Positions 67 through 39,291 of a DNA stretch of 64,000 bases are shown here, piece after piece (within the stretch, counting starts at the first letter, position 1; each line of letters begins with the position of its first letter). The notes below the pieces were generated by a model. That model ran no database searches. It was not told the origin of the DNA and saw only the letters and a list, made by a program, of their open reading frames with translations. A program made the position numbers and the translations under genes. The DNA comes from Strigamia acuminata (Eukaryota; Arthropoda; Chilopoda; Geophilomorpha; Linotaeniidae), in assembly GCA_949358305.1 (NCBI GenBank), contig OX442322.1:3410001-3474000 (forward strand). The letters are read 5' to 3'.

Positions 67-1440
67 TCACTCTCCTCCTTCCACTTGATCTTTCTTATCC
101 TCTTCCTTGATCAACTCGAATGGGAGAATTTCACGGTTTGCAATCTCATACACAAATCGTAAGCGTAACTCACATGGCTCCCCAAACTGCATTAAGTCAC
201 GGTCTTCAACGTATCTTCTAGTGAAGTAGAGTATGGTTGGGCCACAGCTGTCATTATCCAATTGGTGCATACGTGGCGGGTCCCAACGTATGAATTTGTT
301 TGGAAACTTTACTCCTGCATCCATCAACGAGTACCTTAAAGATTCCCACTTTGGATATGTGCGCTCTATTGGTCCGCTTGGGTCGTAAAGCACGTATTGG
401 GTTGGCTTTTTCCGCCAATCCACTATGAAAAGCTGCCAATGCTCTTCAATAGGAACTGGAAACACCCAAATCTTCTTTTGAGCACTTGGAAGTCTCTTCA
501 TTAGCCAATAGATCGCTTCCTTTCGTTTAGCTGGGTCCACCATTTTGTAGACCCACTCAGATTGAAATGGTGCCAATATGGGATATCGCTCTTCTAACAG
601 TTGGAGATAGTGATCAACGACGCTGTCATACGTCCAGCTCTGTCGTCCCGGCGTTAGATCGCCTAATGCTGCCATCTGATAGTTCATGACTTTAATCGGC
701 GGACAACCTACGGCGTCGAATGCTAAGTCGTATTTTGGCGCATTACTATAATCTAATGCAAGTCCGAGAGCCTGGACCTGTCGTGCAGCGTCCAACTCCA
801 CACGGTATACCCGTATAGGAGTAGGAAATACTACACTAGGGTCCTGGAAGGACTCTCTTCTCGCTAGGGCGATGGCTTTTAAAATGTTTTTTCTTATCTT
901 CGCCTCCTGGATCAGCAAAGCATTCGCCCCTGTTCTCCACAACTGATAGTCGGGCAATCCCATCACTCCTTTTAATTTCCTGGCTCTAATGGCGTTGACC
1001 ATATTCCGGTGCTCCATTCGCAAATCATTTAATCGGCGTTTGTTTCGATCAACGGTGTGACGCATTTCTTCTTCCCGGATTCTTTTCGATTGCTCGTCAA
1101 ACACTTTCTTCTTTTGTGCTTTCTTATCTCGTTTCAATTGTCGATTCTTACGACGACGACGCAATAAGCCTTCTTCACCCTTTGTTAATGGTCCTGCATA
1201 TTTCTTTTTGTCTTCCTCCGCCTTTTGTTTTCCTTCTGTAAACGGGCGTGGGCAGTTAACCAATTCGTCCAAAGTTTTACTTGTGCTCGGCTTATTTGCT
1301 AAATAAATTTCCAAGTCATCGCCTTTCTTAAGTTGACGTTCCAAAAGATCGCCCACTTGCATCGAGCAGACCGAATCCGCATCGCTGTCACTGTCACTAC
1401 GCACATCCATCCGATCAAATTTGCTTGCCATTTCGTCCAT
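67..1440 (-). CDS. Gypsy-A ORF3: predicted Ulp1/C48-type cysteine protease
   Basis: 457 residues starting at ATG 1440. The N-terminal 150 residues are charged and probably coiled coil, with basic runs around residues 95-115. The C-terminal third carries the signature of the C48 (SUMO/ubiquitin-like protease) or adenain-like fold: His in EEHWQLF near residue 333, Asp in LYDPSG 19 residues later, then Gln and Cys in QLDNDSCGP near 393-399. These would form the His-Asp-Cys triad with an oxyanion-hole Gln. It lies in the env position, 415 bases after pol on the same strand. There is no signal peptide or membrane segment, so it is not an envelope protein. A pyrimidine-rich acceptor ends seven bases before the ATG, which suggests a spliced mRNA. 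The substrate is unknown: element polyprotein or host SUMO-like conjugates are both possible. Confidence 0.8.
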   Translation of the reverse strand: MDEMASKFDRMDVRSDSDSDADSVCSMQVGDLLERQLKKGDDLEIYLANKPSTSKTLDELVNCPRPFTEGKQKAEEDKKKYAGPLTKGEEGLLRRRRKNRQLKRDKKAQKKKVFDEQSKRIREEEMRHTVDRNKRRLNDLRMEHRNMVNAIRARKLKGVMGLPDYQLWRTGANALLIQEAKIRKNILKAIALARRESFQDPSVVFPTPIRVYRVELDAARQVQALGLALDYSNAPKYDLAFDAVGCPPIKVMNYQMAALGDLTPGRQSWTYDSVVDHYLQLLEERYPILAPFQSEWVYKMVDPAKRKEAIYWLMKRLPSAQKKIWVFPVPIEEHWQLFIVDWRKKPTQYVLYDPSGPIERTYPKWESLRYSLMDAGVKFPNKFIRWDPPRMHQLDNDSCGPTILYFTRRYVEDRDLMQFGEPCELRLRFVYEIANREILPFELIKEEDKKDQVEGGE

Positions 1441-1855
1441 TCGGATCCTAATATATTGTTTGAAAAGAAAATAAAAAAAATTAATTCATTAATTCAAAAT
1501 TTTCACAAAATTATTCCAATTTCCATTCATTATTTCATTTAACATCTCATGTTGCACTAATTTACACTAAATTTAACAATTCTTCAACTAATTAGTCACT
1601 TGATAATGTATGCACACACTAAAATTTCATTTCGAAGTTTTAACACAATTATTTAAGCCTAATTTTCCATTTCGCGATGTTATTTTCTCACAAAATTCGC
1701 GATAGATTCGTTTCGTTTTTAAGCTATTTGTTCGCCAAATTCGTTCAAAATCCACTCCTTTCACTTACGGAATCACACACAAATCAACTGCTGCTATTAT
1801 TAATGCTTTAGGTTTCTTTGAGTCACACAGTAAACCCGGTTCGTCTCAGAAAACC
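1441..1855 (-). other. Gypsy-A pol-ORF3 spacer with leader exon and short intron
   Basis: No coding frame. On the minus strand a strong donor (C then GTAAGTGAA, GT at 1768-1767) is followed by a long T-rich tract and the acceptor TATTAG (AG at 1449-1448), seven bases before the ORF3 ATG. This predicts an intron of about 320 bases and a noncoding leader upstream of it. Whether the leader comes from an internal promoter or from a longer LTR transcript cannot be told from the sequence. Confidence 0.5.
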
Positions 1856-4800
1856 TTAACACAATCCACTATAGTCACGACGAGCCTGTTTGCGAAGGCG
1901 ACGTGACCGGAAACTCTCGATTTCAGGCGGCGATGCGTCATCGACTGCGTCAGCGACACCTGTCGGCGGTTTTCGCAATTGATTTTCTTTGTTTTTCCGT
2001 TCGTCTTCGTTTTGCCATCTTTCCATAATTTCTTTCGGTCCATAGAGCGCTTTTAATCGCTCTTTTTCGCTTGGAATTGGGAAATTTGACACTTTTGTTG
2101 TATTTTCTTCAGGTTCAAAGAGTGTTTTTAACGAAATTTGGTCGTCATCGCTAATAAATCGTTCTTTAGCGATTGGAATTGGCGAAATTGATGTGTTTTC
2201 TTCAATTTCTTGTTGTTTTTCACTCTGTGTTGCAATTTCATCAGCAAATGTGACTTTTTTAGCTGTCAATTCTTCTAATATCTCCGCTGGAATTTCTTCT
2301 CTGGGTTTATACGGTTTTAATCGTTCAATGTTAACAATATCTGTTTTCTTTCCATTTGAACTTCTAATTTCGTAGTCATTTGGCGCGGTTCTTCTTACTA
2401 TTTCGTATGGGCCTGAGAATTGTGGCAGGAGTTTTTCACTTAACCCAACTTTTCTATTGGGTGTTTTGAGATATACTAATTCTCCTGGGTCAAATTCCAC
2501 ATGAACTCGGCCTTGATCGAATCTTTTTCTGCTTTTTCCTCCTTGCCATTCCAACCTTTCATTTGCTATCTTCCTAGCTTCTCTGATGAATTTTGAGGTT
2601 CGCAAGGTAAATTCTTTTTGAGGTAAGTTGAGGTTTACGTCCACGTTCAAATCAACTTCATATCCTTTCAAAAGATAATAAGGTGTATATCCTGTCGTTT
2701 CATGCACACCGGTATTATATGAGAAAAGCAAAAATGGCAAAAAATCATCCCAGTCCCTCTGGTCCTTATCAACATAAATCTGCAACATTTTTGCAAACGT
2801 CGCATTAAAACGCTCGGTAAGTCCATTGGTCCTTGGATGGTACCCTGAAGTGGTTTTGTGTAGGGCTTTAAACATATTTGATACTTCTTCCACCATTTTG
2901 TTTCTGTATTCTGTGCCTCTATCGCTCAGGATTTCTCTCGGACTGCCTTCCTTCAACATTAACTCATAAAGCAAAGTTCTAGCTGCTTCCAACGCTGTTG
3001 ATGCTGGAGCTGCTCTAGCAATCACTGTCCGCGACAAATAATCTGTCATTACGAAAACATACTTGTTGCCCTTGTCGGAGGTCGGAAAACTTCCCAGTGT
3101 ATCGATTCCAATCCTCTCGAAAGGCTTAGATATCGTAGACCACGGCTGCATTAAACCTTTTGGCGCTGTTGTCATTGATTTCGAGCTCGCGCAATGTGGA
3201 CAAGAAAGTACGTAATTTCTAACGTCTTTATATATCCGGGGCCAGAAGAATCTTGTTCTCATTCTCTTCCACGTTTTGTTTAGGCCCAAGTGAGCACCCG
3301 TCAGTCCGTCATGCATTTCTTCAAGAACTGCAGTTTTCAAATGCTGCGGAACATATAACAGATTTACTTCCGTGTCTAGGGAATTCAAAGAATTTTTCTT
3401 CCTAAACAACACATTGTCGAGAAGAACGAACTGCTTTAGAGGACGTCTTCTCTTCTTCGGAAGTTGCTCTACTTGATTCATTGCGGTGATCAATTCCAGT
3501 AGCTTCTTGTCTTTACGCTGCTCAGCAGGAAGGTCGAGCTGTTCGAGTAAAAGTGAGGGAACTATTTCGTTTTCTTCCTCGCTTAAATCTTCTGGAATTC
3601 TGCTCAAGGCGTCGGCATCTTTGTGCGCTTTTCCGCTCTTGTAGATCACATCGAAATCAAAGTCTACTAGCTGTAGGCTCCATCTAGCTAGTCTGCCATT
3701 GGGGTTTTTGACTGATTTTAGCCATTGGAGTGCCGAATGGTCTGTAATTATCTGGAACTTCTTACCATACAGATAAGGTCGGTACTTTTCAATTCCAAAC
3801 AGAATGGCCAGACATTCCCTTTCTGTGGCTGTGTAATTCTGTTCTGCTTGGCTGAGAAGTCTACTGGCATAAGCTATCACATGTTCTTGTTTGTTTATCT
3901 TCTGTTTCAACACTGCTCCAAGACCATATGCGCTCGCGTCTGTCGATACCATGAAGGGTTCTTCAAAATTAGGGTGCGCAAGCACTGGCACGGTGATAAG
4001 GGCGGTCCTTAATGTTTTAAAGGCCTTGTCATGAGGTGGGCCCCAATCGAATTTCTCGTCCTTCTTCGTCAAATTGACTAAGGGCTTAGATATGTCCGCA
4101 AAACCTGGAATGAACTTCCTGTAATACGAACAGAGCCCTATGAATCCTCGAAGAAGTTTGAGGTTAGTAGGAACTGGAAACTTTGCGACCGATTCCAAGT
4201 TCCTAGGGTCTGGTGATATACCCTCAGAGTCCACGACATGTCCCAAATACTTAATGGTGTTTGTCCCAAATGTGCACTTGCTCAACTTCACCTTTAAGTT
4301 AGATTGTCTAAGCTTGTCGAAAACGTTGTCTAGATCTTTCAAATGCTGATCGAATGTTTTAGAGAAAATGATAAGGTCGTCAATGTACGCTATACAAACT
4401 TTGCCTAGGAGGTTGCCTAAAACTTTATTCATTAACTTTTGAAAAGCTGCTGGACTATTGCATAATCCCATTCCTAGGACGTTAAACTCAAAATGTCCGC
4501 TTGAAGTGGTAAATGCTGTTTTTTCGCGATCTTGTTCATCTATTTCGACTTGATAATATCCTTGAATAAGGTCCATCATAGAGAAGAACTGTGCACCTGC
4601 CAGCTGATCTAAAGTGTCATCTATTCTTGGCAATGGGTACACCATTTTCTTTGTTATCGCATTCAAACGTCTCCAGTCGACACAAAATCTCCACTTACCA
4701 TCTCTTTTCTTTATTAGCAATACAGGCGCGCTCCAGGGACTTTCTGATTCCCTTATCACTCCCATATCAAGCAATTTCTTTGTTTCCTCAGCTTCGACTT

Positions 4801-5800
4801 CTTTTTCCTTCATAGAACGACGATACGGTTGCAGATGTATTGGGTCATGGTCTCCAGTATCGATTTTATGCTTATACACTTGAACTCTTCCCAAATCCTT
4901 GTCAGAAACAGCAAATCTGTCTTGATTCTTTTGAAGAAGTTGTCGCATTTGCTCTTGTTGGTCTTTATTCATTTTGTCTTTTGCTATTGAGGAGTCAAAG
5001 TCAAAACAGTGTACCTGTTTTTCATCAAACACCCCAACATCAACCACATAATAAGCTTTTGCGATTGCTGACTTCTCCTTCAGAAAGACTGTCTTCTTGG
5101 TTGGGTTAGCCACTCGAATAATGCCTTTGCCGTTCTTGAAATCTGTTAAAGTTTTACAACCTATCACAGCAAATCTATCAGTAACATTATGTAATGGTTG
5201 CACAAACATGTCCAATGTTATTGCTTTATTCAAATAGATGGGAACAATGCACTCATGCATTGGTGGAATTGTGATGTTCTTCATTACCCTCGCAACATAA
5301 TTCTGATCAACAAAAGTTTTATTCATTGGAAATGACACTTCCTTTCCACTAGTTCGGCCCACAAAGATTTTTTGTTTGTCGTAGTCTAACACGCACTTCG
5401 CGAACAGCATGAATGGGTCACTTAGCAGTAATTCATAATGAAATCCTTTAACAATCAGGACCTCGATCCTGTATGTTAATTCACCAATTGTAATGTTCAT
5501 CTTGGCTTTTCCTATTGGAGTCACAAGTTCTCCGCTTACCCCTTGTAATCGTATATTTGGGCTTGGCGGGTACTTCAACTGTAAAGCTTCAGCAAGCTCT
5601 TCGCTGATAACATTGCGTTTTCCTCCAGTGTCCATAACTGCCTTGACTTCCATGTTGTTCACTATTACTGGAATTTCCAATAGAGATTCTGAAATGTTCA
5701 TATTGACTACGATTATCTTCTCTTTTCTACTTTTTCTTTTCTTCTTTGGATGACAACATCTTCCTTGTTGATGGTGACATCTTCCTTGTGGCCGACCCAC
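1856..5800 (-). CDS. pol: Gypsy-A Pol polyprotein (protease, RT, RNase H, integrase)
   Basis: About 1314 residues, probably made as a Gag-Pol fusion, since the frame opens at GTG over the gag stop and has no ATG there. Domains in order: aspartic protease with DTGG near residue 57; reverse transcriptase with the YIDD active site near 470; RNase H with STDAS and TDHSALQWL near 617-680; integrase zinc domain (H-H-C-C, about 828-872); integrase core with catalytic Asp, Asp (SDRGTEY) and Glu (GLTERFN) near 897, 957 and 993; and a GPY-type module (SGPYEIV) near 1130. The C-terminus is basic and charged. Nothing essential is missing, so it looks catalytically intact. Confidence 0.93.
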   Translation of the reverse strand: MGRPQGRCHHQQGRCCHPKKKRKSRKEKIIVVNMNISESLLEIPVIVNNMEVKAVMDTGGKRNVISEELAEALQLKYPPSPNIRLQGVSGELVTPIGKAKMNITIGELTYRIEVLIVKGFHYELLLSDPFMLFAKCVLDYDKQKIFVGRTSGKEVSFPMNKTFVDQNYVARVMKNITIPPMHECIVPIYLNKAITLDMFVQPLHNVTDRFAVIGCKTLTDFKNGKGIIRVANPTKKTVFLKEKSAIAKAYYVVDVGVFDEKQVHCFDFDSSIAKDKMNKDQQEQMRQLLQKNQDRFAVSDKDLGRVQVYKHKIDTGDHDPIHLQPYRRSMKEKEVEAEETKKLLDMGVIRESESPWSAPVLLIKKRDGKWRFCVDWRRLNAITKKMVYPLPRIDDTLDQLAGAQFFSMMDLIQGYYQVEIDEQDREKTAFTTSSGHFEFNVLGMGLCNSPAAFQKLMNKVLGNLLGKVCIAYIDDLIIFSKTFDQHLKDLDNVFDKLRQSNLKVKLSKCTFGTNTIKYLGHVVDSEGISPDPRNLESVAKFPVPTNLKLLRGFIGLCSYYRKFIPGFADISKPLVNLTKKDEKFDWGPPHDKAFKTLRTALITVPVLAHPNFEEPFMVSTDASAYGLGAVLKQKINKQEHVIAYASRLLSQAEQNYTATERECLAILFGIEKYRPYLYGKKFQIITDHSALQWLKSVKNPNGRLARWSLQLVDFDFDVIYKSGKAHKDADALSRIPEDLSEEENEIVPSLLLEQLDLPAEQRKDKKLLELITAMNQVEQLPKKRRRPLKQFVLLDNVLFRKKNSLNSLDTEVNLLYVPQHLKTAVLEEMHDGLTGAHLGLNKTWKRMRTRFFWPRIYKDVRNYVLSCPHCASSKSMTTAPKGLMQPWSTISKPFERIGIDTLGSFPTSDKGNKYVFVMTDYLSRTVIARAAPASTALEAARTLLYELMLKEGSPREILSDRGTEYRNKMVEEVSNMFKALHKTTSGYHPRTNGLTERFNATFAKMLQIYVDKDQRDWDDFLPFLLFSYNTGVHETTGYTPYYLLKGYEVDLNVDVNLNLPQKEFTLRTSKFIREARKIANERLEWQGGKSRKRFDQGRVHVEFDPGELVYLKTPNRKVGLSEKLLPQFSGPYEIVRRTAPNDYEIRSSNGKKTDIVNIERLKPYKPREEIPAEILEELTAKKVTFADEIATQSEKQQEIEENTSISPIPIAKERFISDDDQISLKTLFEPEENTTKVSNFPIPSEKERLKALYGPKEIMERWQNEDERKNKENQLRKPPTGVADAVDDASPPEIESFRSRRLRKQARRDYSGLC

Positions 5801-7131
5801 TAGTTTTCCTCTTCTTGTTGACCTTGTTGTGGGTTCTGCTTAGGATTAGGGTTCGTTTTACCACCCCCTTGTGTCCTTTTCTTCTTAAACCACCTTCTAT
5901 TGTTTGGGTTCCCTCTATTTTCTTGAGGTTGTTGCTCCTGTGGCGCTGATGTGTTATGTTCACAACCATAACGATGCCAACATCCACATGAACGCGTTGT
6001 TGTCGGACTACTATTTGACCGCTGTCTACCTCTGTTGTATCTACCTCTAAAGTTCTGTCCGCGCTGCGATGCTGGAATATACCACTCGCCTTGTATGAAT
6101 AATGGAACCGATTGTTGTGGCTCTACTGACTCACTAACGAGCTTTTGCTGTTTTAATTTAATATTTTCAGCTAATAACTCGGCGTAGCTTACTGGGGATC
6201 CCCCTGTTCCAGACAGTATACCTGTTGTCGTAGGGTTCACCTTTTCATCTACAACTTTTTTGAACATTGTGAGCAGTAGATCCGCTGGTTCTTCTGTTTT
6301 GTGACTTTCATACAATTTAAGTCTCTGTTCCATTTCTTCTAACGTCGATGGAAATACTGTTATCATCATCTTCTGCATTGCAGGCTTCAAACCTTGGTAA
6401 ACATAATTTATTTTCTGAGTTTCAGTCATCTCTGGTAGAATAAACGCACATTCGGCCAAGACTTTCTTCATGAAGGCATCTGCTGTACCCTCTTTGTGTT
6501 TCATGAAGTGGAGAGTATTGTAAACATTTTCTTGGCTTCTTCTAAATTTTTTCTCGATCTGTGGTTTCCAATCCGTCCATTTCCATGTCGGATTCTTCTT
6601 AAGTTGTTCCACAAACCATGCCAATCCATCAGTCTTTAAGGCTAATGCTAGATGTTTTACCCTCTCATCATCTGTTCCTATTGTAGCTTCATATGCCACA
6701 AGCCATTGGTCGATGTTGCCCTTTTCTGTATCATAAGTGACAACAGGTCGCTTCTGCACTACCAAACTCTTCAATAAGTCGGTCAATACGTCCGTTGGAG
6801 TCTGTGGTGATGTCATTTTCGGAAAATTTGGTTTAATTGGGGTTGGAACTGGTTTAGTTTTTACTGGTGTAAATGTCTTTATTATTTCTTCTAAACCTTT
6901 TTGTGGAATTAATTTTATTGCTGGAGTAGCAAAATCCAATTTCTGTAATATTGATTGAGGTTGAGATCGGACTTCTTTATCTTCCTTCTGAGGTTCAGTG
7001 TCAGATTCGGATTTAGCGTTTTTACTTCTTCTAGTGGTGATATTTTTCAAATTTGGTTCAGGTGACTGCAAATTTTGTAGATCCTGAAGATTATCCAAGT
7101 TGAATTGTGACAATTTCACCGGCTTATCCAC
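5800..7131 (-). CDS. gag: Gypsy-A Gag polyprotein
   Basis: 443 codons open to a stop just before position 7131. The frame begins at GTG; the first in-frame ATG is at 6816, so either initiation is non-AUG, an upstream exon is spliced on, or about the first 105 residues are untranslated. A capsid-like region (GNIDQWLVAYEATIG through WFVEQLKK and the W..W..Q..KKF pattern) lies around residues 135-290. There is no canonical CX2CX4HX4C knuckle. Instead there is a short cysteine/histidine cluster (CGCWHRYGCEH) among Arg/Gly-rich and basic tracts near residues 360-430, which may replace it in RNA binding. The product forms the particle shell of the element. Confidence 0.85.
   Translation of the reverse strand: MDKPVKLSQFNLDNLQDLQNLQSPEPNLKNITTRRSKNAKSESDTEPQKEDKEVRSQPQSILQKLDFATPAIKLIPQKGLEEIIKTFTPVKTKPVPTPIKPNFPKMTSPQTPTDVLTDLLKSLVVQKRPVVTYDTEKGNIDQWLVAYEATIGTDDERVKHLALALKTDGLAWFVEQLKKNPTWKWTDWKPQIEKKFRRSQENVYNTLHFMKHKEGTADAFMKKVLAECAFILPEMTETQKINYVYQGLKPAMQKMMITVFPSTLEEMEQRLKLYESHKTEEPADLLLTMFKKVVDEKVNPTTTGILSGTGGSPVSYAELLAENIKLKQQKLVSESVEPQQSVPLFIQGEWYIPASQRGQNFRGRYNRGRQRSNSSPTTTRSCGCWHRYGCEHNTSAPQEQQPQENRGNPNNRRWFKKKRTQGGGKTNPNPKQNPQQGQQEEEN
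5803..5809 (-). promoter_or_regulatory. Candidate Gypsy-A -1 frameshift site (G GAA AAC)
   Basis: On the minus strand the last gag codons read GAA AAC TAG, and pol is open in the -1 frame across this point. The A-site half (A AAC) is a classic slippery sequence but the P-site half is not. I found only short stems downstream, unlike the strong hairpins of the other families. Pol must be reached by -1 slippage or reinitiation; the exact site is inferred. Confidence 0.4.
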
Positions 7132-7676
7132 ACTGAAGCCTTATATTGCACTTTTTTATTCACTTCACTAGCACTAATCTCTTTCTAAACACTGAATACA
7201 CTAACACGAATTCATTACCTGAAAACTTAAAGTGTTATTAGCATATAATACATAAATATTACACTCAAAATTACTAAGAAAATAATCCAACAATAACATT
7301 TCAAAACAATTTTTCAATTCCTATAAATTCACAAAATTTCCTGTAAATAAATATCAAAATTAGTATTTATACACTATATATTTTATTTATTCTAAATATA
7401 ACAATTGTAAATCAATTTATTAATCCCTAATAAACAATTAAACTACTAAATTACTAAATATAGGGTTCAATTTCCAAAATGCAAATTATTTCACACAATG
7501 ACATTAAATATTCAAGCTGTGACTTCACTTGTTTTTACCAACTCTGAGTCATTCAAGATAATTGCTATAAAATCAGCAATTTTCAAGTTTTTATTTCTTG
7601 ATTTTTATTAAATTATTTTGGCAATTTTAATCCAATTTTAATGGGATTTTAAAATCTAAACGGGCTACAATCGAGA
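7132..7676 (-). other. Gypsy-A 5' leader
   Basis: AT-rich, with no convincing reading frame. It lies between the primer-binding site and gag. No strong structure was recognised. Confidence 0.5.
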
Positions 7677-7690
7677 CCGCATCTCCACCA
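7677..7690 (-). promoter_or_regulatory. Gypsy-A primer-binding site, tRNA-Ala-like
   Basis: On the minus strand TGGTGGAGATGCGG starts two bases after the 5' LTR end. It is the complement of CCGCATCTCCA plus CCA, the 3' end I recall for eukaryotic tRNA-Ala. The match is 14 bases. Confidence 0.65.
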
Positions 7691-7692
7691 GT

Positions 7693-8149
7693 TGTTACGT
7701 GGCTAAATGGGGATTGATTTAGTCCTACGTGACATGAATTTTATCAAGAATGACACAGGGTTTTATATGTAAAATGCCTATTGGCTTTATTATTCAAAGT
7801 CGGACATTTACTAATGTAAATGTTCGGTCATCAGCTCTTATTACATTTGTTCATTTATTAAACCTAAAACACATAAATGGTTCATTCAAATCAAATAAGT
7901 AACTAAATAAGGATGATGCTGTTGTCAATTCAATTCAGTTTAGGAAACCTAGTCCTGCCTGACCGTCAACCGGCTGGCAGTAGTAGGTGAAGGTAACAGT
8001 TTGAGAATCAAAAGAGATCTGAGCTCTCTGGCTTAATCAACTCACTAAGTAAACTCCTATTCCCCCTATCAACTAAGTTGAACGGTCTGTGCATCTAATT
8101 AGGTGCGCAGCGCCGTCTAGTGAGAATTCATTGTATTAAATGCCTAACA
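7693..8149 (-). repeat. Gypsy-A 5' LTR (457 bp)
   Basis: On the minus strand it runs from TGTTAGGC at 8149 to ACGTAACA at 7693, giving the inverted ends TGTTA/TAACA. It is followed at two bases by the primer-binding site. TTTAATAAATG within it contains a polyadenylation hexamer. The partner LTR is off the window, so the ends rest on TG..CA and on the junction with B1 gag. Confidence 0.75.
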
Positions 8150-10686
8150 AAGCGAGCAGAGCCAGCCGATACACGGTACGGCTCTACCGCGTAACATTAC
8201 AAACATTACAAATCGTACGTGCAGCTTTAAGAGCGCACAGGTTATCCCCAGAAATCACCGTTGTTGAAGGCGCATACGCTCAACAAATGGTAGATTCCGC
8301 TCAATTCGAAGCGGATGCCGAGAATGAGGCCCGGCAAGCCATCCGCGAGAGAAAGCGGAAGCTGGCGGAAAGAGAAGCGCGAGCTCTCGAGTACGGTAAA
8401 TCCCAGCGCGTTCCGACCACTCCAGAAGAGGTCGAAATAGTTGATCGAGCCTTACATGCACATCGTTATGCATTCCATTCTCAGCAAGAAGCTGAACAAG
8501 CTTTCATGGCTAGGCTGCAACGAGACAAACCAAAATCCGTTCGCAAGCCAGAAGTTAGCTCGTCCGAATTGTCCGACGAGAGCGTCGAAGGCGACCCGAA
8601 GCGCACGCCGAAGGTCAGCCCCAAACCCGAGCGAAAAAAGGAAGTGCCAGTCACTCCACGCAAACGGGAAGTATCGACCGAACAACGCGTTCGACCTCGC
8701 ATGATGGCGTTAGACGATAATACTAACAACGCTATCAACCGATTAATAAATGCGAACAACGCGCGTCGTAACGAAGAACAGACTCACACGAGCCGACAAC
8801 GCGACGACCCGCGGGGTAGCGACTGGCCACAGTCGGTGCCCATCCTCAAAGACGACGGACCTTCGAGAAAACATTCCGAAGACCGCACATCGTCACGAGA
8901 GGAACGTCAACGCGAAAGAGGACAGCAACAGTATCACTACGGGAACAGTGATTCGTCATCGGATGAACTGGAGTCGAATGCGCCCAGTCATCACGATTCG
9001 GAGAGAGGTTCCGAAGAGAGACGAAGGGAAAGAGAACGCGATGAACGCAGGGAAAGGGAACGTGACGACCGTCGTAGGGGCCGGAAAGAGTCAAACTCTT
9101 CACGGCGCAACCCGCCACGCCGCTCACCGTCTCCCGACCCTAGCTCCGACCCCTCGTCCAACGACGACAGGCGAAATGATAAATCCAGTAATCGCCGGAA
9201 GAGATCCAACTCTCCGCGCGATAGAGAGAAACGACGTCGATCGGAAAATAGCGACCACCGACGGGAGGAGTTTCAGGACCTTCCCCGACAAAGCGCGTTT
9301 ACCGATTCGACGGGACGGCAGTATACGATGGGAGAGCTTGGAAGAGCCCTGCTTGGCTCGTTAAAAGCCGAGGGAATCGATCTGAGCAAACGAAACGATC
9401 GTAACCGTAGCACTGGCGACCGCGTAAAGAAAAAATACGCTGTCTCCCGGCGTGATACAATGAGTGTCACCGGGAATATTAGGTGGCAATTTTATATTCA
9501 GAACCGTTTCAACGGGTCATGGAAAGCGGGAGATCGCTTCCTTGACGAAGTAATTCGAATTAAGACTGCCACTAAAGCCACCGTAGGAGACATGCTCACC
9601 CACGGTATTGTCGAGCTAATGACAGGCTCGGCACGTGAGTGGTACCAAGGATTGAAAGGCGTCAATTGGGACGACTTTTTAATGAGATTCGACCTGCGCT
9701 ACGGCGAGACACCCGAAGAGGTGAGCCGAAAAATGCGAGGTCTTCGCCAGATGCCTGGTGAAACCATAATGGATTACGACATTCGCGCCAGATTGTTGTT
9801 CGAAAAGGCCCCGATGGAATTTCATGCCACGGGATTCAACCTTTTCTTTCTCGGCGGTTTGTCGGAATACTCGCAAAGGGTGCTACTTGAAGAAAGGGCA
9901 CCGACAGGAGGTAGCTACGAGGAGATGAGCGCCTTCCTGTTCGAGAACACGATAGATATCGAGAAGAGATACTATTCCGCTTTACCAGAAGCGGAGAAAG
10001 CAGCAACCGCTAACCGTCTCAAGTTGAGTGCGGAAAGATATGGGGCGACAGACAAAATCATGCGCCCTACTGAATATCTTAGCGGTATAATGGAGCTGGC
10101 AGAAGCTAGCGTTGGTTTACAAATAAAAAATAAACTGACATCCACGCTGCCTTCCAACCCTTTGGCCGCCCCTAAAAAGGCACCGACAGCGTCAGCCATG
10201 CAAGCGACACTGGAGGAGGTCAAGGAGGGGGAGGAAGCCGAACAAAATGTCAGAAAATCAGACGAAAAAGAAGAAAAAGACGACTATTCGACGGACGAAG
10301 AAATACGAAGTTATCGCGACACTCTATCAACGGGTTGCGATGAAGAAGGACCGCTAGTACATCTCATCCATCGAGATAGAGCGGTAGAAGAATTTCGCGC
10401 CAGGTTAAAACCAAATGCCGGCCGAATTCCGAAGTATTTTCGGAAAAATTACACGCCACCGTCGAAAACAGACCCTGAAAAGAAAAAATCGACTGAAGCC
10501 CCAAGAGACAAATCAAATATTCGCTGTTTCAAGTGTAACCAACCGGGCCACTACTCCAATGAGTGCCCAAGAACAGCGAAAGAAGACGCTAAGTTTGACG
10601 CGATAATGAAGCAGATGGCAGAGATTAAACTCGCCATGGCAAAAAACGAGTCAAAAAACGAGTCAGCGCAGGCGGCGAAGAAATAA
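8150..10686 (+). pseudogene. gag: Gypsy-B1 Gag, interrupted by Gypsy-A (C-terminal ~845 residues)
   Basis: Begins inside gag at the Gypsy-A LTR; the ATG at 8140 belongs to that LTR and is not the native start. It aligns with the intact B2 Gag from about its residue 185. Features in order: an alanine/arginine-rich helix; a long disordered region with RS/RE/RD repeats (about 8990-9260); a capsid region that includes the WYQGLKGVNWDDFLMRF segment (9637-9690) with the conserved second Trp; an acidic linker; and a CCHC zinc knuckle (CFKCNQPGHYSNEC, about 10520-10565). The downstream part is fully open. It ends in TAA at 10684-10686 and probably shifts to pol by -1 slippage at 10641-10659. Confidence 0.9.
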
Positions 10687-10704
10687 CTTCTCGACCGTCT
10701 GCGC
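10641..10704 (+). promoter_or_regulatory. Gypsy-B1 -1 ribosomal frameshift signal (two heptamers and a stem-loop)
   Basis: Two in-frame A AAA AAC heptamers (10641-10647 and 10653-10659), each followed by GAGTC. Six bases after the second begins a 10-bp stem (10666-10675 with 10695-10704, one G-U pair) whose loop holds the gag stop and a possible inner GAAG/CTTC pair. After slippage the -1 frame is open into pol. The layout matches a textbook -1 frameshift site. Confidence 0.85.
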
Positions 10705-10709
10705 CATTC

Positions 10710-13700
10710 ATGAAGAAGAAGGGGTTTAACAAAGGGTTCGATAAGCCGCCACCAGTCAAAGAAATGGGTAGTGACATAGCTAACGCCCAAATTCAAGACA
10801 GGGCCAACAACGCTTTGCAGGTAATTACCGCAAACGCTGAGGCTGAGGCGGAAGAACCGAACCTACTGCTTGAAGAATTACCTCAAGTGGTCGAAGAGAC
10901 AGAAGAATTTCGTGTTTTCATGTGCAACGTGGCGGTCGATTACACCAGCCGCCTATGTATGCTGCCCATGACGATAGAACGCGAAAAAATTATGGGACTA
11001 TTAGACTCGGGAGCAGATCGCTCGTTCGTTTCCGAAGACATAGTAGCATCATTGGGTCTCACCGATAAGATAAAAGGCGTTAATAAAAATGTACGTCTAA
11101 AAACCGCCAACGGAATGGCGCGTCCAAAAGGAGTTATATTATTGACCATGGAGTGGCTCGGAGGGGTAGAACAGCACCCTTTCCTGGTCCTGCCCACATG
11201 CGACAGAATTTTTCTGTTGGGTTTGGACCTCATGGCGTCAATGGAAATACAACCAAATCCAATAACGAAATCTTGGAATTATATCAGAAATGATAGAGAA
11301 AGACCCGCAATTGTCGTGCCACCAGCTCTTATCAAAGAAGCGGCCGACAAGACACAGTGGGAAAAAGGCCTAAAGAAATTCGTTCAAGATTACGATTTTA
11401 AAGCATTCGTAACAGAATTGCAACGGGACAATGTAGTGGAAACGCTTGTCGCCGACGCCGCTTTAGAATTAAGCGAAGCGGCAGCCCTACGAAGAGTCCT
11501 ACTTAAATATGAGGGGATCCTGTCGAAAAAACCGGGCCGAACGAATAGGGCTATTCACGAAATTAAATTGACGGATAATAAACCTATACGAGTTGCGTAT
11601 AAGGGAATGAACCCGCAAAAACGTGAAATAGTGCAAAAAATGTGCCAAGAAATGCTAGACAGTGGCATTGTCTCCGAGGCCCAGGGAGAATACGCGACGC
11701 GAGTTGTGCTCGTGATGCGCCCGCGCTCGGACCCACGCCTATGCATTGATTACCGCCCATTAAACGCGGTGACGGAGATAGATCCCATACAGATGCCGTC
11801 GATCGAATCCATTTTGAGAGAGCTTAGCCCCTTTTCTTGGGTTACGACGATGGATCTGTCGAAGGGATACTGGCAAGTTGAGATGAGGCCAGAGGATAAG
11901 CTAAAAACAGCATTTTACTCGCCAATTGGACGGTTGATGTTCAACGTCATGCCGTTTGGTTTAGTGAACGCTCCCAGTACCTTTCAGAGACTAATCGAAA
12001 GCGTATTGGGTGATATCCTGCATCAGTTTGTGTGGGCATACCTAGATGACATAGTTATTGCCTCTAAAACATTCGAAGAGCACATTGAGCACATCGACCA
12101 AGTGCTCACCCGGCTGGCAAAAGCTGGGTTACACGTTCACCCGGGCAAGAGCAAGTTCTGTCGAAAGGAGCTTGCCTTCCTGGGTTATCGCATTGGAGTT
12201 AATGGTTTAGCTATTGGCCCCGAAAAAATCGATGCGATTAATCGTTTCCCACCACCCGAGGACGTTAAAGGTGTCCAACGGTTTATGGGAATGATAAACT
12301 TTTTCGGCAGGTTGCTACCGGGTCTAGCTGAAGTGGCAGCCCCAGTTACCGACCTCCTGAAGAATGAAAACGAATTTGTATGGTCAAATGAGTGCAACAT
12401 CGCATTTAATGCGATAAAGAGGATGCTGACGGAAGTCGGCGTAATGCCTCTACCCGACTTAAACCAGCCGTTCATATTACACACGGACGCCAGCAGAGTT
12501 GGGTTGGGAGCAGCATTGCTCCAGACACACGTGCGCGACGGAGTCGAACAAGACCTGCCGTGCATGTTTATAAGTCGCAAACTCCAAGGCGCTGAAAAAA
12601 ATTACAACGCCACAGAGTTGGAGTGTTTGGCAGTTGTGTGGGCTATAAGGAAATTCAGAGATTATCTCGAATATACCAAATTTGTAGTCCACACAGATCA
12701 TCAAGCGTTACAGTGGCTGATGAAATTAAAGGAGCCAGCCGGTCGACTAGCCAGATGGCAGTTAGAACTGATGGCATGCGACTTGACCATTCAATACAAG
12801 CCCGGCAAATATAACGTCGTGGCTGACGCTCTATCAAGGGCACCAGTGTCAGATCCTATCGACGCTGACGATGATGGCGAGGATGATTCCCGCATCATTT
12901 ACTGCCCGACGAGTTGTCACCGTTGGGATTTAAGGAAAATGAATGAAATTCCTACCGCGTCTCCAGCAGATGTAAAATTCTGTGGATTCTGGACGCGGTT
13001 ATACCAACCAGCTGCTGACAATTACCCAAATGCAAAGAAGGAATTTAAGCTAGAGCGGAGAATAAATGACCCGCTTCTAAGCGCCTTCCACGCTCATGTC
13101 GGCAAGCAAATGAAAAGCAATCCCCTGACAAGGGAGGAAATAATTGTGCAACAAAAATTAGACAAAAAATGTCAGGACAGAGCTAGATTCGTACTGACAG
13201 GAAAATATCCGCCCAACTTAACCAGAAGGCAGAAGCGTCGTTATGCGCACGAATCCATAGATTACCTATTGGATGACGGCCTGTTGGTGAAACATCACCC
13301 AAATCACCAAGATGACTTGAGTGAATCGGACACCGCAGTAAAGGTAGTAATACCTGCTTCCTTAATCGGTCGCGTGCTGTGGTTGTTACACGGGCACCCG
13401 CTTGCGAGCCATGCGGGAGTAAGCAGAACACTCTATCGTGCTACACAGCTTTTTCACTGGACAGGGATGAAAAAAAATATTGCTCTTTTTGTCCACCAAT
13501 GTCAGCGATGTCAAGCGTGCAAGCCGAGGAGTAAATCACCATTCGAAACTATTTTCTTAGGGCCTTACGCGCCTTTTGATTGTTTAAGTGTCGATGTGAT
13601 GGGCCCAAAACCCGTTACGGGAAATAAAAATGCGTACATTATCGTTATAATGGACGTAGCAACTCGTTGGCCCGAGTTGTACGCCGTCGCTAGACCTTCA

Positions 13701-14780
13701 GCAGAAAAAATCGTTGAATGTATCTACGACGTAGCGTTACGTTACGGATTTCCACGTAAAATAATATCCGATAACGGACCCCAATTTATCTCGAAAATTT
13801 GGGGTAAGTTTTGTAAAAAATTCGGGATTGTGGCGTCACATACTTCGACCTACAATCCTAGAACAAATCCCGTTGAGCGACTCAACAGGGATATCAAATA
13901 TGCATTAAGTATATTCACTGACATCCACAATAGGTGGGATGAATACTTGAGGGAGATCGCGTTCAGCATACGAACAACAGTCTCGAGGACGAGAGATTTT
14001 TCTCCGGCCTACCTCAACTTCGCCCGAGAGCTACGAGTGCCTTGGGACCCACGAGTGGCAGAGTCGGTAAATGTGGTGGACCCAGAGAAACCACATGAGT
14101 ATGTGTATAAATTGGAGCAAACAATTTCGAACACATACAAGCATATGATGGCGCACATTTTTAACATGCGCGACCGCATTTTACAAGATAAAAGCGGTGG
14201 AAAATTCGTGAATTTCGAGATCAATGATTTGGTGTGGAAAGATGCACACACCCTCTCAAATGCAGCGAGAGGAATCACCGCCAGCTTGGCCGACAAAAGA
14301 GACGGTCCGTATGTGATCATCGGCAAGCATGGCGGTAACGCGTATAAATTACGTAAGCTCGAGGACAATACCGAGCATAAATCGATACAAGTACGAGAGT
14401 TAACTCCGTACATTCCGGAATTCCCGCAACAAATGTGGGCCAAGGGCCAAGTCAAGTCCAAAACTGACGGCCAAATCGTCGATATGTTCGCTGGCGAGTC
14501 GGAAAAAGCACCGCCAAGTGACAACGAGGAGCATTTCGACGCCCCTTCACCTCCGGTTAACGAGATAGTTGAATCCGTTCCGGATCCAATTTTGGTCGGG
14601 GGGGAAACAGGAGAAACTCCTGAAACAAACACAAAAAACACGGATAAAAAAAGAAATACACATGAGGAGGTACAGACACAAAAAACAACAAAAAACGTCG
14701 TACCTGTCTCGACTCATCACCTGCGGCCTCGTAGAAGTAATCCGTTTATAAAAGACGGAAAGGTCGTAGGAAAGGAGTAG
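10710..14780 (+). CDS. pol: Gypsy-B1 Pol polyprotein (protease, RT, RNase H, integrase)
   Basis: 1356 residues from the first ATG in frame; real synthesis probably starts by frameshift upstream. Aspartic protease DSGAD at residue 99; reverse transcriptase with YLDD near 444; RNase H (HTDASRVGLG, TELECLAVVWA, TDHQALQWL) near 590-670; integrase zinc domain with two His (HGHPLASHAG) and CQRCQAC, about 894-945; integrase core with catalytic Asp near 961, Asp in DNGPQF near 1021 and Glu in NPVERLNRD near 1055. The tail carries a KRDGPYVI GPY-like motif and ends in a basic RPRRSNPF motif. It is intact and nearly identical to the B2 pol. B1 lacks its own 5' LTR here, so it is probably silent. Confidence 0.95.
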   Translation: MKKKGFNKGFDKPPPVKEMGSDIANAQIQDRANNALQVITANAEAEAEEPNLLLEELPQVVEETEEFRVFMCNVAVDYTSRLCMLPMTIEREKIMGLLDSGADRSFVSEDIVASLGLTDKIKGVNKNVRLKTANGMARPKGVILLTMEWLGGVEQHPFLVLPTCDRIFLLGLDLMASMEIQPNPITKSWNYIRNDRERPAIVVPPALIKEAADKTQWEKGLKKFVQDYDFKAFVTELQRDNVVETLVADAALELSEAAALRRVLLKYEGILSKKPGRTNRAIHEIKLTDNKPIRVAYKGMNPQKREIVQKMCQEMLDSGIVSEAQGEYATRVVLVMRPRSDPRLCIDYRPLNAVTEIDPIQMPSIESILRELSPFSWVTTMDLSKGYWQVEMRPEDKLKTAFYSPIGRLMFNVMPFGLVNAPSTFQRLIESVLGDILHQFVWAYLDDIVIASKTFEEHIEHIDQVLTRLAKAGLHVHPGKSKFCRKELAFLGYRIGVNGLAIGPEKIDAINRFPPPEDVKGVQRFMGMINFFGRLLPGLAEVAAPVTDLLKNENEFVWSNECNIAFNAIKRMLTEVGVMPLPDLNQPFILHTDASRVGLGAALLQTHVRDGVEQDLPCMFISRKLQGAEKNYNATELECLAVVWAIRKFRDYLEYTKFVVHTDHQALQWLMKLKEPAGRLARWQLELMACDLTIQYKPGKYNVVADALSRAPVSDPIDADDDGEDDSRIIYCPTSCHRWDLRKMNEIPTASPADVKFCGFWTRLYQPAADNYPNAKKEFKLERRINDPLLSAFHAHVGKQMKSNPLTREEIIVQQKLDKKCQDRARFVLTGKYPPNLTRRQKRRYAHESIDYLLDDGLLVKHHPNHQDDLSESDTAVKVVIPASLIGRVLWLLHGHPLASHAGVSRTLYRATQLFHWTGMKKNIALFVHQCQRCQACKPRSKSPFETIFLGPYAPFDCLSVDVMGPKPVTGNKNAYIIVIMDVATRWPELYAVARPSAEKIVECIYDVALRYGFPRKIISDNGPQFISKIWGKFCKKFGIVASHTSTYNPRTNPVERLNRDIKYALSIFTDIHNRWDEYLREIAFSIRTTVSRTRDFSPAYLNFARELRVPWDPRVAESVNVVDPEKPHEYVYKLEQTISNTYKHMMAHIFNMRDRILQDKSGGKFVNFEINDLVWKDAHTLSNAARGITASLADKRDGPYVIIGKHGGNAYKLRKLEDNTEHKSIQVRELTPYIPEFPQQMWAKGQVKSKTDGQIVDMFAGESEKAPPSDNEEHFDAPSPPVNEIVESVPDPILVGGETGETPETNTKNTDKKRNTHEEVQTQKTTKNVVPVSTHHLRPRRSNPFIKDGKVVGKE

Positions 14781-15354: not shown

Positions 15355-16146
15355 GTAGTAGTCGGTGTCGACGCACGAGATTTAGCTCCGTGCGGTTGAA
15401 TTAAAGATACATTTGACTAACACTTGACATGAACGCTCTGCGTTCGAAATAGTGTATAATTATTATACTAATACCCACGATCGCGCAAGCGATTGTATTT
15501 TCTCCTTATTGTTTTGTTTTCAAGGACGCGATCGCAGACTCAATGTCGCCTCGCTCCTTGAAAATGACTCACGACAATTGACACGAACGAGACAAAAGGA
15601 AACGAGCTTTCTTTTTATATTTCCGGGAATGGAAATAATTTATTGGATAGATTTTGGAATAATTTATAGAACGTTGTTTTCTATTTTTATTCGTTATTTT
15701 ATTCGCGAATTTTTCCAATGACACTAATTTATTTTAGATTTGTTTTAAATTCGATTTGTTTCCGAATTTTGGGAATAGTTTTAGACAAATTTATTTCTTT
15801 ACAATTTATTTTGACAAGAACATTTATTTTACATGTTCTAAAATTGTCATTTGGAATTTTCGCGAACGATTTCGCGAGTTTATTTAATTTATTACACATT
15901 AATTTTAAATATTAAATAATCCGAAGAGAATTTCCGGATTAAGATGCCTGATTCCGTCTCGTGGCTATCATTGGACGTGAGCCAGATGTGCCAAGAAGAC
16001 TCTTTCTTCCTGACAAGGACGAATCAATGAACAGGAATAGGACTCGACGAACGGCCGCACGTTTCAGCGACGTTCCTCGAGCCCACCCCCTATTTATCTC
16101 CGTGTTATTGGCGATTTTATTAATTATTTTGTTTCCATCATTGCAG
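15355..16146 (+). other. Gypsy-B1 ORF3 intron (792 bp, predicted)
   Basis: GT at 15355, AG at 16145-16146 after TTTCCATCATTGC. AT-rich, with no long frame except an extension of exon 2 from a GTG at 15961. It contains a hairpin at 15431-15436/15440-15445 (GAACGC with GCGTTC) whose B2 counterpart has a different but equally paired stem. A second hairpin (CGATCGC with GCGATTG) lies just downstream. Confidence 0.7.
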
Positions 16147-19011
16147 ATGGAGCTCCGAAACACGTGGGGAGCGCTCAGCCCCGCATGCATAGTGCGAGCG
16201 GGCATTTATCGAGGCGTACTGCCCGATTTTCTGCGCCGCTGCTTTGGCGAGGATGCAAAGCCATACCGCCTGCGCGTATTATTTTCGCGCGCCCTCGCTA
16301 GGCGTTGGGTTAACGACTGTTCACTCCTGGACGCGTTCCCGGAGTCGGTGCGAAACGTCGTCGCTGCAGAGCTCGCTCGCATCGATGACCCGAAGTCACC
16401 AATCTTCCACCCGGCCCTGTCGAGCCAATACACCGGCAGGCCAGTGGAGGAACATGTGTTGTTCGCGTGGCAAGCGGCCGAGACCGAGGAGGCCCGCGAA
16501 GAAGTGTATCAACACTACCGCCAGCAGCTAATCGACACTGCGCCGGCGGTTGCAGAGCGGATTTTGCAAGACGACGGGATGAGCACCGCCGATATACACC
16601 TGTGGTGCGAACAGATTCGGCAGGGAGAAGTTACGCCACAGTGGCGACCGAGAATGGGGATTCTCACGTCACAAGCTGAAATGTGGCAACTCCACTATTT
16701 GGGAATTCTCGGCCCCAAATATAATTTCCCAAGGAAGCGTAAGCGCTCCAAGGGAACCGGGGGCAGCGAATCGCGCTCCCCGGGACGGTCGAAGAAACAG
16801 TGCGTCGAACAGCACTCGACCGTCAACGATGGAGCGGGAACGTCAGCGCAGCCACCGCGCGACTCCGCGAATTACACCAGACCAAGGGTGTTCGTCAACC
16901 GTCAGATGAAAGACGGTAAAGAGACTCGAGAAGTCTGGATTTCGGGCGACGAAGAGCGAGTCTCTCGTCCCCGTGTCGGCAGACATCCGCTGACTCACCG
17001 GGAGCAGCGGAAACGAGACCGCAAAGAGCGGTATTTCGCTCGCTGCGAGGCGCGGGGAATTCCCCTTCCCGACCACGCTCTCAAAGCAATAGAAGCGAAG
17101 GAGGCGAGAGAAGCACGATCGAAGTCGAGTGGCAGATCTTCCGGGGAGCGTCGCGTCCTAGCGCCAGACACGCGGGACCTTCGCGAGATCATCACTCAGA
17201 TGAAACGCAAGAAATTGTCGCGTTTCGACCCCGCGATGCAGTTCGCCCGCAAGATGGGCATCGTCGAGGATGGTACCGTGATCCCACACGAGGTGGCACG
17301 GTGGTTAAGCGAATATGTCAATTCGCGACCGCGTGTAGAAAACGCACCTACGGCCGTCGTTCCACCGACGAGTTCTGTAAGCCAGCTCCCGGCACTCCAA
17401 GTCACGCCGACTGGAGTGCAAGCGACGCTGCCACCGCCAACGCAACAGTCTTTGACGTTGCTGTTGCCGACGCAGCCATCGACGTCGCAACCACTGCCGG
17501 CACAGCAGTCCCTGACGCTGCCGCCGCCGACACAGCCGCTGCCGCCGCCGACGCAGCCCCCGCCGCCGCCGACGCCGCCGGACTCGAGCGTCACGCCGAA
17601 CCCGACCGTCGACGACTCTGTGATGCTGCCCGTGCACCAGAGTATTGCGCGGGAATGCCATAACGCCCGATTCGGAGAATATTACCCGAGCAAGGCAAGA
17701 CACGACCGCACCGCGATGTGGTATGAACAGCGTGACGAAAACGCACGGCTGGCTCGAGAAGCAGCCAATCCATCGATCGAAGAGCTCTTAGCCTTCGCAT
17801 TTGTGATGGAGGACCCGAGGGCCGCCGCCGCTGCTCTGCAGGGCGCCGACGTCACTCAGCGCCATTTCATCGAGTGGGGGATTTCGATGATGCGGCACCA
17901 CTCGCGTGCGTTCGCTGCAGATCCTGATCGCAGCAACCCTGTAAATCGGCGCAGTCTACAGCTGGCTTTGACAAAAATCATGGTCCAGTTATTGACCCCC
18001 TCGCTCTTTGGGGTCGGACGACAGGCGATGGCCTGTTGGTCCGTGGTAGACAGAGAGGGTGTGCAGATACCTCGCGCACTCGTTGGGGAATGGAGCGCCA
18101 TTCTCCCCAACCCGGCAATGACTCGCTTCGAGCTGACCCGGGACGTGGTGAACCCCGAATGGGAGGGGTATAAGTTGCGGAGCATGGCCTTCCGCCACGC
18201 CGTTACCACGTGGGAACCAACACCGTCAGCGCAGTCACACGCAATGATGGTCACGAGTGAAGAGCCGATGGAGAGCGACGCCGCCTCTTCGACTGCTTCA
18301 CGTGGAGCCCCAACTCCACCACCGCCGCCGCCACCGATGCCTCCAGCGGCGACACCACAGACACCCGTCCTGTCAAATGCGGCGGGTAAGCCCAGACGCT
18401 TGTTATGTCGGACGCCACCAACGATGTCCGCCGCTCGCCAGAGCCTGACGCCTCCCGCAGCCCAACAAGCGCGGGAAGAGACTGTCCAGCAAGCGGTAGT
18501 TCCGAAGAGCGCCAAGCCAGCGAAAGCGGCGAAGCTTCAGACGAACTATTATGAGAAGTTATGTGACGAGTTCTCTCAGCTGTCGATGACGACGGCGACG
18601 CGCAAATTCATCCTCGCGCAGAGAGACAAGGGGAAATCGGTATTCGTTTGGCTACACAACCAGGTGCGCCAGACCACCGATTTGATCCTCCATCAGCGAT
18701 TGCTGAGGGCCCACCGTGCGCCTCGAACGGCCGCGGAGGCGAACGCAATCCGGCACACCAATTCCGGGTTTTCGGCGTTCATTCCGCGGGTGTGGCTGCA
18801 TGAGAGGAGACGTGCCCCATACGAGCCGGCCGGCGGCCACGAATTGTGCTTTATTTCCGAGCACGAGGACCCCCGCGACCAGTCTTCAGCCTTGGTTGGA
18901 GATCTGGTTTTGCCGCCCGGCGTTGTGCCGCCCGGCGCTGAGCCGCCCGTCCCTGGAGTGAGTTTCGCCCAGGCGATGGATCCAGCGTCGGGTCCCAGCA
19001 AGAAGGATTGA
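16147..19011 (+). CDS. Gypsy-B1 ORF3 exon 2: unrecognised element-specific protein
   Basis: 954 residues after an acceptor; with exon 1 the product is about 985. I do not recognise the family. Visible features: a conserved N-terminal globular part of about 220 residues (rich in Trp, Arg and Leu); a basic nuclear-localisation-like run (PRKRKRSK) near residue 197; a very charged HREQRKRDRKERYFARCEARG block; a Pro/Thr-rich spacer (about residues 430-490); a second conserved region (about 500-690); another Pro-rich spacer; and a conserved C-terminal 150 residues beginning YYEKLCDEFSQLSMTTATRKF. There is no signal peptide, transmembrane segment or furin-like site, so it is not an envelope. B2 encodes a homologue that is much more diverged than its gag-pol, yet both stay open. 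A nuclear or RNA-binding role is possible but unproven. Confidence 0.8.
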   Translation: MELRNTWGALSPACIVRAGIYRGVLPDFLRRCFGEDAKPYRLRVLFSRALARRWVNDCSLLDAFPESVRNVVAAELARIDDPKSPIFHPALSSQYTGRPVEEHVLFAWQAAETEEAREEVYQHYRQQLIDTAPAVAERILQDDGMSTADIHLWCEQIRQGEVTPQWRPRMGILTSQAEMWQLHYLGILGPKYNFPRKRKRSKGTGGSESRSPGRSKKQCVEQHSTVNDGAGTSAQPPRDSANYTRPRVFVNRQMKDGKETREVWISGDEERVSRPRVGRHPLTHREQRKRDRKERYFARCEARGIPLPDHALKAIEAKEAREARSKSSGRSSGERRVLAPDTRDLREIITQMKRKKLSRFDPAMQFARKMGIVEDGTVIPHEVARWLSEYVNSRPRVENAPTAVVPPTSSVSQLPALQVTPTGVQATLPPPTQQSLTLLLPTQPSTSQPLPAQQSLTLPPPTQPLPPPTQPPPPPTPPDSSVTPNPTVDDSVMLPVHQSIARECHNARFGEYYPSKARHDRTAMWYEQRDENARLAREAANPSIEELLAFAFVMEDPRAAAAALQGADVTQRHFIEWGISMMRHHSRAFAADPDRSNPVNRRSLQLALTKIMVQLLTPSLFGVGRQAMACWSVVDREGVQIPRALVGEWSAILPNPAMTRFELTRDVVNPEWEGYKLRSMAFRHAVTTWEPTPSAQSHAMMVTSEEPMESDAASSTASRGAPTPPPPPPPMPPAATPQTPVLSNAAGKPRRLLCRTPPTMSAARQSLTPPAAQQAREETVQQAVVPKSAKPAKAAKLQTNYYEKLCDEFSQLSMTTATRKFILAQRDKGKSVFVWLHNQVRQTTDLILHQRLLRAHRAPRTAAEANAIRHTNSGFSAFIPRVWLHERRRAPYEPAGGHELCFISEHEDPRDQSSALVGDLVLPPGVVPPGAEPPVPGVSFAQAMDPASGPSKKD

Positions 19012-21706: not shown

Positions 21707-21758
21707 CAAGTTGAATAACTGATTCTAACCTGTGATTACACCATACCCAAAGCAAGAA

Positions 21759-24830: not shown

Positions 24831-24848
24831 CTTCTCGACCGTCTGCGC
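24785..24848 (+). promoter_or_regulatory. Gypsy-B2 -1 ribosomal frameshift signal
   Basis: Same design as in B1: A AAA AAC heptamers at 24785-24791 and 24797-24803, a six-base spacer, then the 10-bp stem 24810-24819 with 24839-24848 spanning the gag stop. The pol frame is -1 and open through the site. Confidence 0.85.
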
Positions 24849-24853
24849 CATTC

Positions 24854-29497: not shown

Positions 29498-30342
29498 GTA
29501 GAAGTCGGCATCGGCACATGAGAATTAGTTCCGTGCTGCTGAAGAAGAAATTTTGTTTGACTAATACCTGACATGAGTGCTTTGCACTCACAATAGCGTA
29601 TAATTAATTATTAACCGCGATCGCTCACACGATCGTATTTTTTCCTTGTTAATTTGTTTTCGGGGTGCGATCGCAGACTTCACGTCGCCTCGCGTCTCGA
29701 AAATTCCTCATGACATGAGTCACAAGCGAGACAATGGGCTCGAGCCATAAATAATTTTATGACAAGAGGAGAATATTCTGTAAAAGAATATTTTTCTCCA
29801 CAAGTAATTTGACGCATCAAATTGATGCAACTTAACATTCGTACGATGAATTTTTCAATGTGTTAGATAAATTTAATTTGACTTTAACTTCTTTTAAAAA
29901 ATTAGACAAAGTCCGACTTCGGAATAATTCTTTATTAGGTTTATTTATTTAATAAAATTTCGACAAGCACATTTATTGTGCAATTTTAGTAATAATTTAC
30001 ACCCGACGAATTCTTTTTACGAATGACTGATAATTATTAATTTAATTATTAGTAATGTCCTAATTAACGTTAGAATTAATTTGAAGTAAAATCTGATGAT
30101 AAGAATCCAGATTAAAGGCTCGATTCCGTCTCGCTGTGCGTTTTGGACATGAGACAGATTTTTACGTGATGACTTCTCTTTTTCTATCCGACGAGGGACA
30201 ATTCGTCCTACGTTTGCACCGATAGACAGGAATCGGTCTCGACGGACGGCTGCACGTATCGGCAACGTCCCTCGAAACCAACCATTTATCTACGTATTTA
30301 ATATTAACTTTTTATTAATTGTTTATTTCTCCACCCTTCCAG
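29498..30342 (+). other. Gypsy-B2 ORF3 intron (845 bp, predicted)
   Basis: GT at 29498; AG at 30341-30342 after TTTCTCCACCCTTCC, a good pyrimidine tract. It has a hairpin at 29575-29580/29584-29589 (GAGTGC with GCACTC), the covarying equivalent of the B1 hairpin, followed by a CGATCG...CGATCG pair. Otherwise AT-rich and noncoding. Confidence 0.7.
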
Positions 30343-39260: not shown

Positions 39261-39291
39261 ATCCGGGGGATGAAGGATTCATTCAGCCCCC
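39251..39291 (+). promoter_or_regulatory. Gypsy-C -1 ribosomal frameshift signal
   Basis: A AAA AAC (39251-39257) in gag phase, then the TAG stop, then a stem 39265-39274 with 39282-39291 (GGGGG, one mismatch, TGAA). The -1 frame stays open through to the pol ATG at 39308. Confidence 0.88.

Follow-up and report, generated by a model that had tools for sequence, protein, structure and literature searches.

Why should a Gypsy retrotransposon, which already encodes an aspartic protease, carry a second, Ulp1-like protease gene where an envelope gene might be expected? The question is raised by a locus at one end of the window, by which we mean the whole stretch of 64,000 nucleotides analyzed here (Strigamia acuminata, GenBank assembly GCA_949358305.1, contig OX442322.1, positions 3,410,001 to 3,474,000 of the forward strand). 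The locus belongs to a complete Ty3/Gypsy long terminal repeat (LTR) retrotransposon on the minus strand, with 5' LTR, gag, pol, a third open reading frame (ORF3) and 3' LTR; the LTRs and the pol order aspartic protease, reverse transcriptase (RT), RNase H, integrase are Ty3/Gypsy hallmarks. ORF3 lies between pol and the 3' LTR, the env position, just as the original prediction had placed it. Structure modelling shows its product to have a predicted Ulp1/SENP-type (C48) cysteine protease fold, and the gene is under purifying selection. The element is laid out as follows.

7693..8196, minus strand: 5' LTR, matching the 3' LTR at L039:5151-5654, beyond the window edge
5800..7131, minus strand: gag, with a weak Ty3_capsid match (E 7.4e-4, under Pfam's cut-off)
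1856..5800, minus strand: pol, with aspartic protease, RT, RNase H and integrase (Pfam)
1441..1855, minus strand: AT-rich pol-ORF3 spacer, evolving without coding constraint
67..1440, minus strand: ORF3, 457 amino acids, in the env position; by predicted fold a cysteine protease of the C48/Ulp1-SENP type

The C48/Ulp1 identity first proposed from the letters alone was borne out by the structure model, whose matches placed SENP closer than viral proteases, at 14-20% identity; ubiquitin- and NEDD8-specific members were also among these fold matches. PF02902 matched in five of six family members, with a best E of 1.2e-4; the window protein was the exception. No env family in Pfam matched ORF3 at E <= 1, and this result and the predicted C48 fold speak against an errantivirus envelope protein. 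The features below were assigned on the protein, the catalytic roles by homology.

124..807, minus strand: catalytic domain, residues 212-439, the range of the model aligned to the SENP1 structure
439..441, minus strand: putative catalytic His334, followed by Trp335, the tunnel tryptophan by alignment
382..384, minus strand: putative catalytic Asp353
262..264, minus strand: putative oxyanion-hole Gln393
244..246, minus strand: putative catalytic Cys399 within DSCGP
841..1284, minus strand: residues 53-200, a basic, helical stretch of the N-terminal part; it contains RRRRKNRQLKR, which resembles a nuclear localization signal (NLS)

The four residues and their H-D-Q-C order, which had been read as intact, are so throughout the family: H, D and C are kept in 12 of 12 members and Q in 11 (L053 has a stop at Q), and the catalytic residues are constant among subfamilies only 32-42% identical to the window protein. 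Two ORF3 tryptophans align with the di-glycine tunnel of SENP and presumably have that tunnel role. Together with the nearness to SENP, they suggest that ORF3 is a SUMO isopeptidase. The basic N-terminus, another feature predicted at the outset and recovered here, points to a nuclear or RNA-bound location.

Selection on ORF3 was measured in 29 window-family copies (of 30 fetched, the window copy being one; L036 was excluded for an indel). ORF3 showed 62 synonymous and 22 non-synonymous variants, a ratio of non-synonymous to synonymous polymorphism (pN/pS) of 0.093. The last 360 pol codons gave 0.149, and the three frames of the pol-ORF3 spacer gave 0.69, 0.77 and 1.19. None of the 22 non-synonymous changes touched W269, H334, W335, D353, Q393 or C399, in agreement with the constraint that had been expected on the catalytic residues. 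Pairwise ratios of non-synonymous to synonymous divergence (dN/dS) were 0.052 and 0.066 in subfamily C and 0.073 in G, and one D pair gave 0.083 with dS near saturation; dS was saturated in 8 of the 12 codon pairs, which therefore yielded no ratio. We conclude that ORF3 is under purifying selection.

The gene is widespread in this genome, where a search with ORF3 found at least 94 matches (93 scored of 509 candidates), mostly with open frames; among the matches listed, 45 were 91-100% identical and the remainder 33-77%. The gag-pol-C48 order, which was expected to recur, was found in additional copies and in five subfamilies besides the window's own, so that gag-pol-ORF3 or pol-ORF3 has been read in six: A, C, D, E, F and G. 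Complete elements with identical LTRs were read in subfamilies A (window, L045) and E (L042). In subfamily F (L043), gag, pol and ORF3 are all present, but LTRs were not found within the 9.7 kb read; in C, D and G (L040, L041, L044) a whole or partial pol precedes ORF3, the 5' part being broken, nested or missing. ORF3 lay 98-474 bp downstream of pol in 32 of 35 matches scored (of 7,036 pol candidates). No ORF3 relatives were found in protein or viral-contig collections, a weak negative since these were taken to hold little animal sequence. Eight C48 loci of the genome (L001-L008, of 29 matches) fit the ORF3 family profile weakly, with a best E of 6e-5 obtained with filters off on a tiny set, and so do not point to one of these host genes as the donor of ORF3.

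The 504 bp of the two window LTRs are identical, and the window insertion is therefore recent. Gag-like sequence of another Gypsy element lies on both sides of it, so the window element is nested within that other element. The target-site duplication is 4 bp at L042 and L045 (by eye), as against 77 bp around the window copy (L039:5074-5150 and window 8201-8277), where four extra bases also stand on one side.

Not every copy retains the gene. Copies lacking ORF3 had been named in the original prediction as evidence against it, and a broader search that used the end of an E-family pol, in which ORF3 was sought up to 3.5 kb downstream in the list of ORF3 matches, showed that they exist: of 127 main pol matches, 63 had a listed ORF3 behind them and at most 64 had none, 64 being an upper bound because ORF3 was known from the matches listed only. 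That list omitted groups of 33-38% identity, none of which, by eye, lay near the 64. With families grouped by identity and frame length (group edges are rough), ORF3 was present behind pol in 44/55 of A and others, 9/19 of C, 4/31 of D and 6/22 of E. The objection failed, however, for the nine of the 64 that were read past pol:

L046-L048, L055-L060: ORF3-deleted copies read, families A, C, D and E

In all nine an internal deletion, about 1.24-1.45 kb long, has taken out every one of the four catalytic residues, showing that absence in these copies is derived and not a primitive lack. Family E has one junction (common to L055 and L056), D two and C one; in A, one is common to L046 and L048, one lies a few nucleotides off (L047, perhaps derived) and L060 has a further one. 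Junction microhomology is 4 nt at L046 and L048 and 2 nt at L047; alignments overlap at the junctions of L055/L056, L058 and L060, and do not at L057 and L059. Splicing was ruled out as the origin of these copies, GT-AG ends being seen by eye at 0/9 junctions. Eight of the nine retain a short 3' stump of ORF3. Sequence running across the E junction occurs at 12 genomic places, two of them 6.6 kb apart, compared with six E pol matches that have ORF3, one of these in two pieces. Deleted forms therefore kept moving, and ORF3 is thus dispensable in cis.

ORF3 may be translated from a spliced mRNA, as two resemblances to splice sites suggest.

1448..1449, minus strand: splice-acceptor-like AG that follows a T-rich stretch and precedes the ORF3 ATG by 7 nt
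7213..7221, minus strand: splice-donor-like CAG|GTAATG in the 5' leader

A donor-like YAG|GTAATG occurs in the A and E leaders and was not found in the F leader. At four of six loci, the top-ranked AG in 1.5 kb is an acceptor-like one no more than 50 nt from the ORF3 ATG; at the remaining two, this AG comes tied second and fourth. As for gag, the window, L042 and L045 all lack an in-frame ATG upstream of the conserved Gag N-terminus. The AT-rich leader (window 7131-7692; L042:903-1680) has several acceptor-like sites and one donor-like site; Gag may therefore be initiated at a non-AUG codon, or within an upstream exon joined by splicing.

What, then, might the protease do? We favor, at a probability of roughly 45%, the explanation that ORF3, made from a spliced mRNA, is a nuclear SUMO protease acting in trans against silencing or on integrase and Gag, with intact copies serving those that have lost the gene. 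The protein would be an active isopeptidase removing SUMO or a similar modifier, and its basic N-terminus could take it to the nucleus or let it bind nucleic acid. At that site it would remove SUMO from silencing factors of the host, or else from integrase and Gag as they come in, with the outcome that copies of the element are expressed and integrated. Action in trans is proposed because ORF3 is constrained and yet deleted copies spread; it would in turn allow ORF3-less copies to spread as long as intact copies supply the protein. Silencing is the favored target because SUMO conjugation serves piRNA (PIWI-interacting RNA)-guided silencing in flies (passages of PMC7272611) and in the Vandal elements of plants anti-silencing goes together with KIU genes that carry Ulp1 (passages of PMC13317346).

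Several points weigh against this explanation. Its anti-silencing part rests on analogy, since the KIU review calls the function of the Ulp1 domain unknown (PMC13317346). The C48 fold is also used for ubiquitin, NEDD8 and viral polyprotein cleavage, and confidence in the ORF3 model is lowest near the catalytic loop. The residue aligned with SENP2 Asp413, which has a role in SUMO binding, is not conserved in families C, D and E. The splice sites are resemblances ranked by a home-made score in AT-rich DNA. Finally, ORF3-less copies outnumber intact ones in D (27/31) and E (16/22), which would be unexpected if the gene were vital to the transposition of each copy. Rather doubtful is a wider picture of an arthropod Gypsy clade whose env slot holds a nuclear deSUMOylase, a public good that would act in trans against SUMO-dependent silencing, and in which gag-pol copies that shed the gene would arise again and again and in some families out-multiply their suppliers, a supplier-and-cheater system.

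An unlikely but serious competitor has ORF3 as a deSUMOylase or deubiquitinase that shields the element's own Gag or integrase in the cytoplasm or particle, and not one that acts on host silencing. It would use the same fold and residues, and the ubiquitin- and NEDD8-specific fold matches suit it; the NLS-like basic N-terminus, fitting the nucleus or RNA binding, does not discriminate between the two readings. Action only in the particle that carries the gene, however, predicts a higher cost of loss in cis than one would gather from the tally of 127 matches, up to 64 of which had no listed ORF3. We think it improbable that the gene is needed, as env would be, for spread from cell to cell or host to host, being kept long-term and lost in bursts within the genome. 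Its position, and the combination of high constraint, repeated deletion and amplified deleted forms, recall env-less endogenous retroviruses, reportedly treated by Magiorkinis in 2012, but the fold is of an intracellular enzyme type and the env search was negative.

Processing of Gag or Gag-Pol, in the manner of adenain or pS273R of African swine fever virus (ASFV), is quite improbable. The possibility of Gag processing had been raised in the original prediction, and the sole check of it, a search for GG sites common to the Gag of A, E and F, found none; those of the window Gag (TGGS, GGGK) are not conserved in families E and F. The element already has an aspartic protease, the predicted fold is closer to SENP than to adenain or pS273R, and ORF3-less copies spread, though helper copies could have supplied the protease. 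That ORF3 is a piece of a host gene, once captured and now functionless cargo, is hardly credible: the host-like SENP fold and the many copies without it would agree, but the selection test contradicts it (pN/pS 0.093 versus 0.69-1.19 in the adjacent spacer), as does the constancy of the catalytic residues among distant subfamilies.

Cryptons are not known to have LTRs, gag or RT. In Gypsy elements of the errantivirus kind, env follows pol as a third ORF, ahead of the 3' LTR, possibly expressed by splicing and repeatedly lost. ORF3 resembles env in all three respects and differs in being protease-like and not an envelope protein. From Ulp1/SENP proteins it differs in having DSCGP where SENP1 has DCG, in its low identity, in its own basic helical N-terminus and in being encoded by a retroelement. 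Ginger1 DNA transposons likewise combine a Gypsy-type integrase with an Ulp1 domain, the Ulp1 or OTU domain being C-terminal, but they have terminal inverted repeats and Ulp1 fused to the transposase (passages of PMC2836005); the LTRs, gag, RT and separate ORF3 rule out Ginger1 here. The KIU and VANC genes of Vandal (Mutator-like) elements offer another extra, long-kept Ulp1 domain, there linked to anti-silencing, but in plant DNA transposons, in another gene context and with its role stated as unknown (passages of PMC13317346). CryptonS elements have a C48 peptidase as an additional protein, but Cryptons are oomycete tyrosine-recombinase elements (passages of PMC3212892). Ulp1 domains occur also in Polintons (passages of PMC10175614), and a plant gene cassette and a cloning method were met as further contexts. 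No C48 gene in an LTR retrotransposon was found among the open papers listed, Repbase and subscription papers lying outside the search, and no mention of Ulp1 was found in the available portions of the Troyka and Retand papers. What appears to be new is an Ulp1-type protease in an LTR retrotransposon, its presence in DNA transposons (Mutator, Ginger1, Crypton) being already known. Such proteases recur there with their use unsettled; a separate retrotransposon gene whose constraint has been measured, and for which naturally deleted copies serve as controls, makes the host-silencing question testable. The Gypsy env slot, moreover, could hold something besides a fusion protein.

C48 proteases may also be present in further mobile elements of this genome, where other repeated long ORFs have a Pfam C48 match over the cut-off.

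G000:C1:47590268 and five equal-scoring places: 1075-amino-acid C48-matching ORFs (Pfam)
G000:C1:22252003 and C1:33635212: 1828-amino-acid C48-matching ORFs, two places (Pfam)

The host had been called an insect. The genome has 54 matches to PF00379, a cuticle family that is presumably typical of arthropods, and one odorant-receptor match, at the cut-off; these indicate the arthropod level only. PF01484 and PF01395 gave no match here or in the controls, which makes this no sign of their absence. Elsewhere in the window, a second Gypsy gag-pol lies on the plus strand at 8140-14780 (Pfam), with a near copy having the same ORF ends at 21729-28918, and two more pairs of large overlapping ORFs are at 36945-43429 and 51336-57847. 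Behind two of these four units stand large ORFs, at 15952-19008 and 30319-33105, which may be the third ORFs of another family.
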